Notes under the pieces: model-generated
What the model was told of the DNA's origin: nothing
Seen by the model: the letters and a program-made list of their open reading frames with translations, nothing else
The model's database searches: none
Position numbers and translations under genes: made by a program
From: Clavelina lepadiformis
Lineage: Eukaryota; Chordata; Ascidiacea; Aplousobranchia; Clavelinidae
Length of the DNA stretch: 64,000 nucleotides
NCBI RefSeq assembly: GCF_947623445.1
Contig: NC_135242.1
Span: forward strand, 5,890,001-5,954,000
Direction of reading: 5' to 3'
Shown: piece after piece, positions 50,201 to 62,653 of the stretch
Position numbering within the stretch: position 1 is the first letter of the stretch
Layout: every line of letters starts with the position of its first letter

Positions 50201-50689
50201 TGCGACCCTGCCCGGAATCAGTAAATAGTTTTAGTAACTCGCTGGTGGTCGCTATTTGAACAAACAGTAATAGTGGCCGAAATGTTGCCAAGTTTTACTT
50301 GACTCCCATAAGGAATGCCTCTTTTGTAAGTGACCATGGGAACGACTTCATTGTGTATATTGTAATCTTTGCCCACTTTTGCGGTTTAGAAACACTTCCC
50401 CAAAGGCGCAGTTTAGCCTCGATTTATTTCTCGGGGGAAGCGTGCTTTTTGGTATCGACAGTCTCAAGCTCGGAACTTCGGAAGAGTCACAAGCTAAAAC
50501 TTTTAAATGTTTTTAGGCGTCGCATCTGTGAACGGCCTCTTATACGTAGTAGGCGGAGACGATGGATCCTGTAATCTCGTTTCGGTGGAGTATTACAACC
50601 CCCGTACTGACTCCTGGACACTCTTGCCGACCACGATGAGCACAGGACGATCGTATGCCGGAGTTGCGGTCATCGACAAACTTTTATAA
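44281..50689 (+). CDS. KLHL2/3: KLHL2/KLHL3 co-orthologue: BTB-BACK-kelch CUL3 adaptor, 602 aa
   Basis: Thirteen exons: 44281-44459, 44551-44657, 44794-44945, 45224-45356, 45638-45747, 45949-46065, 46569-46718, 46956-47090, 47468-47648, 47798-47899, 48439-48567, 48934-49074 and 50517-50689; phases agree throughout, stop TAA. The product brings substrates, in vertebrates WNK kinases, to the CUL3 ubiquitin ligase; KLHL2 also binds actin. A low-complexity head (1-50) precedes BTB (about 55-165: LCDLVLVASDVELPVHKLVM), BACK (about 170-280), the linker AIRSVECYDFKEDRWHQV and six kelch repeats with the GG...W pattern, ending SYAGVAVIDKLL. The substrate-face motif MNMCRRNAG is conserved. I chose ATG 44281 because the only in-frame upstream start-like codon is GTG. 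The donor after exon 7 (GTCTGA) is weak. Vertebrate members are 587-593 aa. One invertebrate gene probably corresponds to both vertebrate paralogues. Confidence 0.96.
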
Positions 50690-52205
50690 TCTCTCAAGTC
50701 GGTCTGAAGCACCCAGATGTACTACGTAACATGCAAGGCTTCTTATAACAAGTAGACATTAGAGAGTATTTTGCGTTTAAGCGCCTTCGTGCAATACTCG
50801 TTAAAAACGGTTTTCTGGCCCATCCAATTTAAACGAATTACTGTGATTTTTCATTTTTTGCAACTTAAGTAATGTCACTCGTTTTTTCCACCTTAAAAAC
50901 GGCCACCTTTTGTCAATGGCATTTTTGTTAGACGGTTTTCGAATACCGCTGTTTTGTTCCTTTTTCTTTTTACCTGTTTTTCCGTAGTTTGTAACTACAA
51001 CGTTTTTGCTATGAAAAAATGCAAGATAGTGCTAAAGTTCCGAGGACGCTTATGTTGGTTCTAATCGCGCTGTTTCATCAAATAACTTTTTTAACTCATT
51101 CACGTAATGCAGCCACGATTGAGCCAGAATTTCCGCTAGATGACGCCGAAGATACTTGCACTTATAGCTGATCTTCGTGACAAGGCCAGTTCGCCTTTTA
51201 TCGGAGTTTGGTTCTTCGACAAAACGCCGGTCATTTTCTAGGTTACGCATCTGTGACCTATTCTTAAATATCCACCATGTGGACTTGAGATAGAGTCATT
51301 ATTAGAAAAAAATGCTATTTGATTGTGACGATTGTTTCATCGCTTGGAGCTGGTGCGATTTTGTTCTTAATGTGCAGAACCGTTTTTTCAAATTTGTACA
51401 TCAATTTTCATGCTATTGCTTTAGCGTTTCTTATCGTCGTTTTCAACTCATTTATTTTCGTTAGACAACGAATTTATTTTAAAACAAATTATGTTCGCAA
51501 GTTTCACCACAAGCTACTTGCTGTGTTTTACGTGCTATTTTTGGAGCAACAAAATTTCTTTGTTTTCGTCATACCAATTAGGAATACTTTGTTCCAGCGA
51601 ATTTACCTCGGTATGTGGCCTATACCTATTTGCGGTACCAAGCTTTATTGTTCTTTTGTTGAATATAAAAAATTTTCTCGAAATCTGTAGATGTTTAACG
51701 ATGGAAGAGAACGTTCCGTTTCGACAAATCTTTCCAAGGCAGGTTAAAATATTTGAACACGTAAGAGTGTAGTAAGGTAGTAACGACATTCCCACAATTT
51801 TTTCTAAGGGGAAGTGCTGTTCGAAATGACTGTTTTTAGTGGTTCCCACACTTGGGTATTATTTGGGTGGGAACGCACATTTTTTTGCATTACACCCTGA
51901 ACGTAAGGGTACCTATAGTCCACAATAGTATAATAGCCTTTCATCCACTAATACCATTCCCCAGAATGTAAGAGCGAATGTTCCGTTGTCATGGAACGGT
52001 TGTTAGGATCGGCTTTTTAGAGGTGTCGCCCTTATTTGTTCTAGAACATTCCATGGCGTGGTTCAATGGTTAACAACTTCTACACTGTCTGTCACTGAAG
52101 GACGTGTGTAACCAGAAAAACGGATATTAGCGATCTCTGGGTGCCAGTGTCTAGGTTTATGAGTCATGATTTATATAATCTCGGGCAATGTTAACCTTTC
52201 TTATA
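50690..52205. other. Downstream of KLHL2/3, no gene recognised
   Basis: The hydrophobic open frames at 51319-51772 are T-rich chance frames without splice or family support. A TGGCGTGGTTCAATGG word near 52053 looks like a tRNA box A, but no box B follows. Confidence 0.45.
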
Positions 52206-55439: not shown

Positions 55440-57033
55440 ATGAAGCAGCTGTTAGTTTTGCTCTGCATTGCTAGCATCGCTCTTTCTGCTCCACTTGCTG
55501 GTAATGTGTCCTGATAAATACTTTGTATTAGTACTTCAAACTTGTTTTAACTTAATATAATTGAATAATGAAAATTTTTTTGGTTGCTCATATAGCATTT
55601 AGGGTAAGTTAAGCATTAGTCGAAAGGTTTGCAAAATAAAATGGTTGCTATTTTTACAGCTCTTGCATTTATTCTTTGAAAAATTTTTTTGCAGATAATA
55701 CAAGGGAGGATGATGAAATAAGTAAGTTGCTGTGTTTTAGGTTGTTAAACTTTCTTGCATCTGATCTGCGATTTCGGGTTTTTTCGACAATGAGTAGGCC
55801 TATGTTTTGTTTTGTCAATTTTATATTACAGTAAAGAAAAGTTTAGTTGGCATTTTTTGTTCTGTAATGTAAGCTTTCATTTTAATTTGTGTTCTAGACA
55901 AGGTAGATAAACGGTTCTTTCACTACGGAGCACAACATCAATCCCAATCTCAAGGTCAGGTTGGTGGAGGTTTTGGCGCACAACATCAATCCCAATCTCA
56001 AGGTCAGGTTGGTGGAGGTTTTGGTGCACAACATCAATCCCAATCTCAAGGTCAGGTTGGTGGAGGTTTTGGCGCACAACATCAATCCCAATCTCAAGGT
56101 CAGGTTGGTGGAGGTTTTGGCGCACAACATCAATCCCAATCTCAATTAGGTCATTATGGTGGAGGTTTTGGTGCACAACATCAATCCCAATCTCAAGGTC
56201 AGCTTGGTGGAGGTTTTGGCGCACAACATCAATCCCAATCTCAAGGTCAGGTTGGTGGAGGTTTTGGCGCACAACATCAATCCCAATCTCAAGGTCAGGT
56301 TGGTGGAGGTTTTGGTGCACAACATCAATCCCAATCTCAAGGTCATTATGGTGGAGGTTTTGGTGCACAACATCAATCCCAATCTCAAAGTCAGGTCGGA
56401 CATGGAGGTGCATACCAGGGCCAGTCGCAATCCCAATCGCAATACGGTCATAGTGGAGGTACCTTATATAAGCGAATTTTTCAATCTCAAAGACAAAATC
56501 AGGTTCAAAAAGGAAATGGCAAAAAGCAAAAACAAAACCAGAATCAAATGCAGATAGGATGGGGTAAAGGAAATAAGCAATCCCAAAGTCAATCTCAATC
56601 TCAAGGCAAATGGGGTAAAGGAAAGAATTTCCAAACTCAAAGTCAAATTCAATCTCAAGGCAAATGGGGTAAAGGAAATAAGCAATCCCAAAGTCAATCT
56701 CAATCTCAAGGCAAATGGGGTAAAGGAAAGAATTTCCAAACTCAAAGTCAAATTCAATCTCAAGGCAAATCGGGCAAAGGAAATAAGCAATCCCAAAGTC
56801 AATCTCAATCTCAAGGCAAATGGGGTAAAGGAAAGAATTTCCAAACTCAAAGTCAAATTCAATCTCAAGGCAAATGGGGTAAAGGAAATAAGCAATCCCA
56901 AAGTCAATCTCAATCTCAAGGCAAATGGGGTAAAGGAAAGAATTTCCAAACTCAAAGTCAAATTCAATCTCAAGGCAAATGGGGCAAAGGAAAGAATTTC
57001 CAGGCTCAAAGTCAATCTCAACTCCAAGGATGA
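55440..57033 (+). CDS. Repeat-protein gene 1: secreted Gln/Ser/Gly-rich tandem-repeat protein, 407 aa
   Basis: Exons 55440-55500, 55695-55721 and 55898-57033 (all phase 1, stop TGA). Residues 1-20 are a signal peptide (MKQLLVLLCIASIALSAPLA). A short acidic pro-segment (DNTREDDEINKVDKR) ends in a Lys-Arg site at 55909-55914. Ten AQHQSQSQ repeats follow, mostly the 16-residue unit GQVGGGFGAQHQSQSQ. A linker contains a second Lys-Arg (56470-56475). The C-terminal half alternates GKWGKGKNFQTQSQIQSQ and GKWGKGNKQSQSQSQSQ in about four 105-bp double units. The repeats are almost identical at DNA level. There are no cysteines in the repeats and no known domain. An AATAAA lies at 57039-57044, only six bases past the stop. 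It is paralogous to gene 2 by exon plan. Structural, adhesive or antimicrobial roles are all possible; none is shown. Confidence 0.85.
55930..56410 (+). repeat. 48-bp coding tandem repeat array of gene 1, 10 units
   Basis: Ten near-identical units (GGTGGAGGTTTTGGNGCACA core) encode the AQHQSQSQ repeats. The period is the same 16 residues as in gene 2, although the unit sequence differs. Confidence 0.93.
56600..57020 (+). repeat. 105-bp coding tandem repeat of gene 1, about 4 units
   Basis: Four double units start GGCAAATGGGGTAAAGGAAA; differences between them are single bases, for example one TGG to TCG change giving GKSGKG. Confidence 0.9.
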
Positions 57034-59449: not shown

Positions 59450-62400
59450 ATGAAACACATCTTCGTCTTATTGGCAGTGGTAGCCCTTGCTTCCGCTGTT
59501 CCAATAGTGGGTGAGTAATTGCTTATTAGCTACTCTAAATAATACTCTAATAAGTTAATAAGCTTTTTTGAGAAAAAAAATTCAAAAATAAGAATTGTTT
59601 GTTTCAGATCAGAAGAAAAACGAAGTGGCAGAAACTGGTATTTTATTTAGAATTTGTTGATATTTGTTCTCTTAGCAGTAGTAGCATTCATTTGATTATA
59701 TAAAAACCGCATTGGTTTGGAAAGAAAATTGTAATAAATTGCGATCTACACTTTTGTGGAAAAAGACACTAAAATATCACTAGTATAAAAAAAATTACGA
59801 CCAAATTTTTGAGATTGAAAGTCAATGCGTAAAATGGAAAACAAATTAATAAAAGTAAAAAATAAACAAGAAAAACAATTCATAAAATATTTCAAAAATG
59901 AATTCAATATATTAAAATTTCTAGCTCTTTTAAGTTTTTTATTTTTACCGTTTTTTTATAACTCTAAACAATATAACTTACCAATGTATAGTATATACTG
60001 TAAAAACCATAAGTTTTACCTTGATGAAATTGTTTGGAAAACTATGTTTGAAACAGTATGCATGATTTTACAGCACACAACTTGACCAATAAGTATTCAT
60101 TTTTTCATAGAACTAGCTAAAAGTGACAAAGACCTCCTGCTTCAATTGAGATCTTATCTTGCACAATCTCAGTCGCAATCCCAGGTCAACGCTGGTCACG
60201 GTGCCCAAGCCCAACACCAAAGTCAATCCCAGGTCAACGCTGGTCACGGTGCCCAAGCCCAACACCAAAGTCAATCCCAGGTCAACACTGGTCATGGTGC
60301 CCAAGCCCAACACCAAAGTCAATCCCAGGTCAACACTGGTCATGGTGCCCAAGCCCAACAACAAAGTCAATCCCAGGTCAACACTGGTCATGGTGCCCAA
60401 GCCCAACACCAAAGTCAATCCCAGGTCAACACTGGTCATGGTGCCCAAGCCCAACACCAAAGTCAATCCCAGGTCAACGCTGGTCATGGTGCCCAAGCTC
60501 AACAACAAAGTCAATCCCAGGTCAACGCTGGTCACGGTGCCCAAGCTCAACATCAAAGTCAGTCACAAGCACAGTTTGGTCGACGCAGATACCAAGGTCA
60601 ATCACAATCTCAATCCCAGATTAACGCTGGTCACGGTGCCCAAGCCCAACACCAAAGTCAATCCCAGGTCAACGCTGGTCACGGTGCCCAAGCTCAACAC
60701 CAAAGTCAATCCCAGGTTAACGCTGGTCACGGTGCCCAAGCCCAACAACAAAGTCAATCCCAGGTCAACGTTGGTCACGGTGCTCAAGCCCAACACCAAA
60801 GTCAATCCCAGGTCAACGCTGGTCACGGTGCCCAAGCTCAACACCAAAGTCAATCCCAGGTTAACGCTGGTCACGGTGCCCAAGCCCAACAACAAAGTCA
60901 ATCCCAGGTCAACGTTGGTCACGGTGCTCAAGCTCAACACCAAAGTCAGTCCCAAGCTCAGTTTGGTCGACGCAGATACCAAGGTCAATCACAATCTCAG
61001 TCTCAGGTCAACGCTGGTCACGGTGCCCAAGCCCAACACCAAAGTCAATCCCAAGTCAACGCTGGTCACGGTGCGCAAGCTCAACAACAAAGTCAATCCC
61101 AGATTAACGCTGGTCATGGTGCCCAAGCTCAACATCAAAGTCAGTCCCAAGCGCAGTTTGGTCGACGCAGATACCAAGGTCAATCACAATCTCAATCTCA
61201 GGTCAACGCTGGTCACGGTGCCCAAGCTCAACACCAAAGTCAATCCCAGGTAAACGCTGGTCACGGTGCTCAAGCCCAACACCAAAGTCAATCCCAGGTC
61301 AACACTGGTCACGGTGCTCAAGCCCAACACCAAAGTCAATCCCAGGTAAACGCTGGTTATGGTGCCCAAGCCCAACACCAAAGTCAATCCCAGGTCAACG
61401 CTGGTCATGGTGCCCAAGCCCAACACCAAAGTCAATCCCAGGTCAACGCTGGTCACGGTGCCCAAGCTCAACACCAAAGTCAATCCCAGGTCAACGCTGG
61501 TCACGGTGCCCAAGCCCAACACCAAAGTCAATCCCAGGTTAACGCTGGTCACGGTGCCCAAGCCCAACACCAAAGTCAATCCCAGGTCAACGCTGGTCAC
61601 GGTGCGCAAGCTCAACAACAAAGTCAATCCCAGGTCAACGCTGGTCACGGTGCGCAAGCTCAACAACAAAGTCAATCCCAGATTAACGCTGGTCATGGTG
61701 CCCAAGCTCAACACCAAAGTCAGTCCCAAGCGCAGTTTGGTCGACGCAGATACCAAGGTCAATCACAATCTCAATCTCAGGTCAACGCTGGTCACGGTGC
61801 CCAAGCTCAACACCAAAGTCAATCCCAGGTAAACGCTGGTCACGGTGCCCAAGCCCAACACCAAAGTCAATCCCAGGTCAACGCTGGTCACGGTGCCCAA
61901 GCCCAACACCAAAGTCAATCCCAGGTCAACGCTGGTCATGGTGCGCAAGCTCAACAACAAAGTCAATCCCAGATTAACGCTGGTCATGGTGCCCAAGCTA
62001 AACACCAAAGTCAGTCCCAAGCGCAGTTTGGTCGACGCAGATACCAAGGTCAATCACAATCTCAATCTCAGGTCAACGCTGGTCACGGTGCCCAAGCTCA
62101 ACACCAAAGTCAATCCCAGGTAAACGCTGGTCACGGTGCTCAAGCCCAACACCAAAGTCAATCCCAGATCAACACTGGTCACGGTGTTCAAGCCCAACAA
62201 CAAAGTCAGTCTCAAGGACAGTGGCACAAGCGTTCAGAAGGTGAGTTAGATTCCAAAGTCAAACGGGGTTTTCAACACCAACATCAGGGTCAAACGCAAG
62301 TAACCATAGAAATTCAACACCAAGGACAATCTCAGTCTCAGGTCGGGACAGGTTCGCAATCCCAGACGCAAACCCAAGGGGGTCAGTCACAGTCACAGGG

Positions 62401-62653
62401 TCAATCACAAGGAGGCCACCCCCCCAATAACAAACCTCCACCCCCTCCTCCCCCACCTCCTAAGCCTGGAAGTCCAAAACCTCCACCTCATCCTCCATCA
62501 CCCCCGAAGCCTGGAAGCCCAAAACCTCCACCTCCCGGAAATCCCCACAAAAGCTCTAAAAAATCTCACAAAAGCTCAAAGGGAACCAAAAAGTCTAAAG
62601 GGTCTAAATCCAAGAAATCAAAAAAGGGTTCAAAGAAAAGCAAAAAACACTAA
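59450..62653 (+). CDS. Repeat-protein gene 2: secreted Gln/Ser/His-rich repeat protein with basic tail, 877 aa
   Basis: Exons 59450-59510, 59608-59637 and 60111-62653 (phase 1, phase 1, stop TAA), the same plan as gene 1. A signal peptide (MKHIFVLLAVVALASAVPIV) and a short charged segment lead into 37 copies of a 16-residue unit, consensus VNAGHGAQAQHQSQSQ. They fall in six blocks of 8, 7, 3, 11, 5 and 3 units. Five identical spacers AQFGRRRYQGQSQSQSQ separate the blocks, each with an Arg-Arg-Arg site (60581, 60968, 61163, 61742, 62033). The C-terminal part has two Lys-Arg sites (62228-62233, 62261-62266), a further Gln/Ser-rich stretch, a Pro-rich segment (about 62416-62545) with KPGSPKPPP motifs, and an extreme Lys/Ser tail. 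No family is recognised. An AATAAA lies near 62880. Precursor processing and Gln-Lys cross-linking are inferences. Confidence 0.85.
60182..62209 (+). repeat. 48-bp coding tandem repeat array, 37 units
   Basis: Unit period is 48 bp, interrupted by five 51-bp spacers; distances between spacers (387, 195, 579 and 291 bp) equal 51 plus a whole number of 48-bp units. Variation is mostly single synonymous changes plus A/T/V, H/Q and V/I swaps, which points to ongoing homogenisation by unequal exchange. Confidence 0.95.

Follow-up and report, generated by a model that had tools for sequence, protein, structure and literature searches.

Gene structure and composition

In the window, i.e. the whole 64,000-nt stretch of Clavelina lepadiformis DNA that was analysed, a long array of 48-bp repeats raises the question of whether it encodes a real protein and, if so, what use such a protein could have. 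A first-pass annotation had proposed a three-exon gene for a secreted-type protein of 877 amino acids, and its coordinates were confirmed. The joined exons (Table 1) gave 2634 nt encoding 877 amino acids, with a single terminal stop, and both introns were bounded by GT/AG splice sites and lay in phase 1. The N-terminus, as assessed by eye, was signal-like. Gln was the most abundant residue (28.4%), followed by Ser (13.5%), Ala (13.0%), Gly (11.6%) and His (8.4%); in total, the protein contained 74 His and 31 Lys residues and no Cys.

Table 1. Positions, in the window, of the features of the 877-residue protein gene and of its upstream sister (/, predicted cleavage point)
Feature	Position	Strand	Details
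Exon 1	59450..59510	+	Signal-like N-terminus MKHIFVLLAVVALASA/VPIV, cleavage point by eye; splice donor GTGAGT
Exon 2, 30 nt, propeptide start (DQKKNEVAET)	59608..59637	+	Acceptor TTTCAG, donor GTATTT
Exon 3: remaining propeptide, repeats, Pro-rich segment, Lys/Ser tail, stop	60111..62653	+	Acceptor TTTCATAG; 855-codon open frame
37 units of 48 bp, six blocks (8, 7, 3, 11, 5, 3)	60185..62215	+	
Linker 1, AQFGRRRYQGQSQSQSQ	60569..60619	+	Tribasic probable cleavage site
Linker 2, AQFGRRRYQGQSQSQSQ	60956..61006	+	Peptide as linker 1
Linker 3, AQFGRRRYQGQSQSQSQ	61151..61201	+	Peptide as linker 1
Linker 4, AQFGRRRYQGQSQSQSQ	61730..61780	+	Peptide as linker 1
Linker 5, AQFGRRRYQGQSQSQSQ	62021..62071	+	Peptide as linker 1
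WHKR/SEGELDSKVKR/	62222..62266	+	Two dibasic sites between repeats and C-terminal part
C-terminal fragment, residues 750-877	62267..62650	+	GFQHQHQ... to ...SKKSKKH; related to the downstream sister's mature part
Pro-rich segment, residues 801-842	62420..62545	+	
Lys/Ser tail, residues 843-877	62546..62650	+	
Upstream sister, exon 1	55440..55500	+	MKQLLVLLCIASIALSAPLA
Upstream sister, exon 2, 27 nt	55695..55721	+	
Upstream sister, exon 3	55898..57033	+	KVDKR/FFHYG, ten GAQHQSQSQ cores, YKR/IFQ, Lys/Trp-bearing WGKG repeats

Organization of the repeats

The 37 near-perfect copies in six blocks, the Pro-rich segment and the Lys/Ser tail were all found as annotated. The 48-bp period was strict within each block, and the blocks were set apart by five 51-bp linkers; on the repeat region, TRF returned a period of 48 bp, 42 copies and a score of 2762. 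Of the 37 sixteen-residue units, 17 were exactly VNAGHGAQAQHQSQSQ, and the other 20 deviated from this form in at least one position; at the DNA level, 23 distinct versions were present. All 37 units carried G[HY]G[AV]Q, with Tyr in a single unit, and Pro was found neither in the units nor in the linkers. At unit position 11, nine of the 37 units had Gln in place of His, which was the commonest residue change; the His at position 5 was conserved in 36 units.

Mean identity was 93.4% between adjacent units inside blocks and 92.1% over all unit pairs. Linkers 3, 4 and 5, together with their flanks, were 98.5 to 99.5% identical to one another, whereas pairs that included linker 1 or 2 reached only 92.8 to 94.4%; the later blocks thus probably arose by recent block duplication.

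Constraint on the reading frame

Other frames were also open between positions 60113 and 62123 of the window, up to 367 aa on the forward strand and 192 aa on the reverse strand. As frames on both strands are thus partly open, openness alone proves nothing. Across the 37 units, pN/pS was 0.12 in the coding frame, the lowest of the six frames; the other forward frames gave 1.9 and 5.4 and the reverse-strand frames 0.92, 0.32 and 4.7 (ratios of printed values). The nearest competitor, the reverse frame at 0.32, faces the third positions of the coding frame. Fourteen columns varied among the units, eight of them third codon positions.

The low pN/pS is evidence of selection acting on the protein, and the extra open frames, which the silent-change test disfavours, are an effect of the stop-free 48-bp unit. 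Since changes among the units are mostly silent in the coding frame, it is very probable that the 877-residue protein is real and under constraint. Chance, or a non-coding satellite, was ruled out by these frame-specific silent changes.

A cluster of related genes

The gene lies in a cluster with two sisters, one upstream and one downstream, and a decayed copy; all four have the same intron phases. The sister gene models are our own and were built from sequence alone. Both sisters followed the plan of the 877-residue protein gene, with a signal-like first exon, a short second exon and introns in phase 1, and had its core repeat and basic sites; in the three remaining models of the cluster, exon 2 measured 27, 45 and 48 nt. 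Related N-termini, the core repeat, the C-terminal part and the gene structure all connected the members. When the C-terminal part of the 877-residue protein was compared with the mature part of the downstream sister, the local alignment scored 279 against a shuffle mean of 79.4, and none of 500 shuffles reached 279. Relatedness is based on such shuffle scores, as the BLAST E-values between sisters are inflated (no composition correction). The upstream sister had a total length of 407 aa and a charge of +31 at pH 8.1.

The decayed copy (L018:648-1440) kept a signal-like exon and a Lys-rich tail and had stops in its exon 3 frame. Intron 2 of the downstream sister contained an element of about 614 bases (L018:3054-3667) with inverted ends, TTAACACTAGAACG...CGTTCTAGTGTTAA, and TTAA at both ends, which looks like a short non-autonomous transposon. 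Upstream of the cluster, at positions 50513-50690 of the window, we observed a frame, VNGLLYVVGGDDGS..., which we take to be kelch-like.

Overall, the cluster is small and fast-changing, and its 877-residue member probably grew by block duplication of the 48-bp unit while the protein was constrained throughout.

Search for relatives and known families

The genome searched comprised 209,060,895 bases in 95 contigs, with the window at G000:C3:5890001-5954000. COX1 and glycosyl hydrolase 6, sought as a check of tunicate origin, gave no match; the latter matched no control genome either, and introns would split these genes, so that these negatives carry no information. With the repeats, both sisters, the exon-1 DNA and the N-terminus as queries, no member was found outside the cluster among the best candidates in this genome. 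In one of these searches, all 30 first-look candidates possibly came from the cluster itself; the N-terminus query matched its own gene only, a search that a diverged member with other repeats may escape. Scanning for a (Gln-x)n pattern returned 50 matches, of which 5 fell in the two sisters and the remaining 45 were spread over 14 other places; as it had no match in the 877-residue protein gene, the pattern is a blunt tool. Ten of the 14 outside places were read on the matching strand, and features of the family were seen at none of these ten. On the minus strand around G000:C1:11719808 (L051), a 637-residue open frame with Thr/Pro/Glu-rich repeats (PPVEAPSATTTTPPKPVPTTTEEEGSGETT) held a QSQSQSQSQ run; judged by eye, it is mucin-like and outside the family.

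As the annotation had supposed, no known family was recognized, since nothing passed the cut-off in Pfam or NCBIfam. In Pfam, the exon 3 frames of the 877-residue protein and of the upstream sister matched no family at E ≤ 1, the C-terminal part of the former gave no match at E ≤ 10, and the downstream sister gave one weak match below the cut-off (E 0.44). In NCBIfam, the sisters had no match, and the 877-residue protein had four, all to staphylococcal Ser-Asp repeat (MSCRAMM) adhesins; with a best score of 98.1 bits versus a curated cut-off of 1150, these were taken as low-complexity artefacts. In the PDB, four weak matches were obtained for the 877-residue protein (best E 0.022, a lysozyme entry) and none for the downstream sister. 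Among the open-access literature matches listed, whose titles and opening abstract lines were considered, no such ascidian protein was described. Although this kind of protein is familiar and not unusual, its repeat unit, the design of its linkers and its family look new.

Predicted processing

From residue 56 to residue 749, paired basic residues occurred only at the five FGRRR/YQ linkers, at WHKR/ and at KVKR/, and convertase-type cleavage at these sites, as predicted from the peptide sequence, is probable. The annotation had overlooked this probable processing. In the sisters, basic sites were present as KVDKR/FF, LYKR/IFQ and YNRR/GFQ.

Cleavage at all of the sites in the 877-residue protein would yield fragments of 174, 129, 65, 193, 97, 64, 11 and 128 residues. 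The first block would remain attached to the propeptide, as no basic site lies ahead of it. The six repeat fragments would contain 4, 0, 0, 0, 1 and 1 Lys, respectively, the four of fragment 1 all sitting in the propeptide, and the last fragment (residues 750-877) would hold 22 of the 31 Lys. The Gln blocks and the Lys tail may thus not stay on one chain after secretion, because the predicted cuts part them. A neuropeptide precursor, for which FGRR would be the amidation signal, was set aside in view of the length of the predicted fragments (64 to 193 residues).

A candidate precursor of extracellular material

The best explanation, which we put forward tentatively and at somewhat less than even chances, is a secreted, disordered low-complexity precursor that a convertase would cut into His/Gln-rich and cationic chains for a coat, a glue or mucus. 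The signal peptide would direct the protein to the secretory pathway, and a convertase would cut after each FGRRR linker, after WHKR and after KVKR. The predicted products are six His/Gln/Ser chains, 64 to 193 residues long and with almost no Lys outside the propeptide, and a cationic chain (residues 750-877) made up of a Gln repeat, the Pro-rich segment and the Lys/Ser tail. Charged His would keep the chains soluble in an acid secretory granule; at the pH of sea water, this charge would be lost and the chains would associate, with Gln-Lys bonds possibly fixing them to the cationic chain. In a simple charge model, the charge of the mature protein fell from +101 at pH 5.5 to +39 at pH 8.1, a drop that would favour association outside the cell. 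The sequence itself establishes the frame, the family, the repeats and the basic sites, whereas secretion, cutting, assembly and the site of use are inferred.

The N-terminal domain of transglutaminase was matched five times in the genome, at three places (G000:C3:3670587-3672479, C1:22145824 and C4:10797250); the presence of an enzyme does not show action on the 877-residue protein. One stretch on C3 read through a TAG, perhaps at an exon edge.

Several known systems resemble parts of this plan. The semen coagulum (REST) genes, i.e. those of semenogelins and rodent seminal vesicle proteins, are described in part of PMC7556508 as having an exon for the signal peptide and a single major coding exon that changes fast and is repeated internally. 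By analogy, the 877-residue protein gene shares with them these two exons, its fast-changing neighbours and, presumably, secretion (PMC7556508). However, no sequence relationship appeared in Pfam, where the exon 3 frame had 0 families at E ≤ 1. REST genes have three exons, the third of which is non-coding, whereas exon 3 carries the repeats and the stop in the 877-residue protein gene, which also has, unlike them, an extra short exon 2 and probable convertase linkers.

Squid beak His-rich proteins, a model of His-triggered condensation, have GHGxY repeats with Tyr contacts and, like the 877-residue protein, His/Gly-containing repeats with GHG; in squid, they form structural extracellular material (PMC6884462, in part). 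The repeat described here differs in reading GHGAQ, with Gln where the squid GHGxY needs Tyr, and the protein is Gln/Ser-rich with almost no Tyr. Since Tyr is present in only one of the 37 units, Gln/Ser contacts or Gln-Lys bonds would be needed. The squid test peptides GA-25 and GH-25 remained dissolved in all buffers tried, according to the same part of that paper; this and the scarcity of Tyr count against the explanation preferred here.

The oikosins of the Oikopleura house are also tunicate extracellular proteins; about half are without known domains and almost a third come from gene duplication (PMC3390340, in part). They are likened to the 877-residue protein by description, not by sequence, and the words 'glutamine' and 'histidine' are absent from the main text of that paper.

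Alternative functions

The main rival, an unlikely one on our reading of the sequence, is an antimicrobial polyprotein: cuts at basic sites would release His-rich and Lys/Trp-rich chains acting on microbes, and FGRRR could yield chains ending in AQF-amide. Defence genes, too, often occur in clusters that include decayed copies, which counts against a precursor of extracellular material; the tandem arrangement, which includes such a copy, would suit an antimicrobial role, as would the basic sites and short propeptides across the family, the predicted sites between the repeats (five FGRRR linkers, WHKR and KVKR) and the cationic upstream sister with its WGKG repeats. Moreover, tunicate blood-cell peptides may be His-rich, as in the clavanins (PMC4904370, in part). 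Against this, the repeat fragments would be 64 to 193 residues long and would carry a charge of no more than about +2 to +4 at the pH of sea water, the 877-residue protein has no Cys, and its blocks consist of polar Gln/Ser/Gly/His.

Salivary proline-rich proteins, which are encoded by tandem genes, have a signal peptide, repeats of Gln, Gly and Pro, and basic sites for cleavage; like profilaggrin, which is not known to be secreted, they are repeat polyproteins cut at basic linkers. Their broad plan resembles that of the 877-residue protein, which might act like them in the pharynx, endostyle or gut as a mucus- or saliva-type protein (cleaved, disordered, binding, lubricating). We consider this rather improbable, as the units and linkers have no Pro; the protein also differs from salivary proline-rich proteins and profilaggrin in its units and has no Pfam match.

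Slightly less probable still is the idea of the first-pass annotation, a transglutaminase substrate that would cross-link to itself as one uncut chain. The high overall Gln content, the Lys-rich tail and the five transglutaminase domain matches are consistent with it, but Gln richness by itself is insufficient, two dibasic sites part the repeats from the tail and five tribasic sites divide the repeats. The idea is weakened in that WHKR, KVKR and the five RRR linkers would put donor and acceptor on separate chains; cross-linking between chains would be possible. A metal-binding His-rich protein seems very improbable, for although 74 His in 877 residues are regularly spaced, the change from His to Gln at unit position 11 in nine units argues against a strict ligand there.

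Significance

If the 877-residue protein were an ordinary mucus protein, it would be of local interest only. Were it instead the precursor of a coat or a glue, it would put a name to one of the proteins of a tunicate extracellular material; such materials differ strongly in protein composition from one tunicate class to another (PMC3390340, in part). A bolder version, which we regard as improbable, is that tunicate-restricted polyproteins of this kind would supply, from one precursor that a convertase cuts at the repeated linkers and in fixed proportion, several nearly Lys-free His/Gln donor chains and one Pro/Lys/Ser acceptor, forming a pH-triggered two-component glue or coat that would be switched on when leaving the acid granule. 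A coat or glue precursor would also provide a short, simple repeat for gels set by pH or by enzymes.
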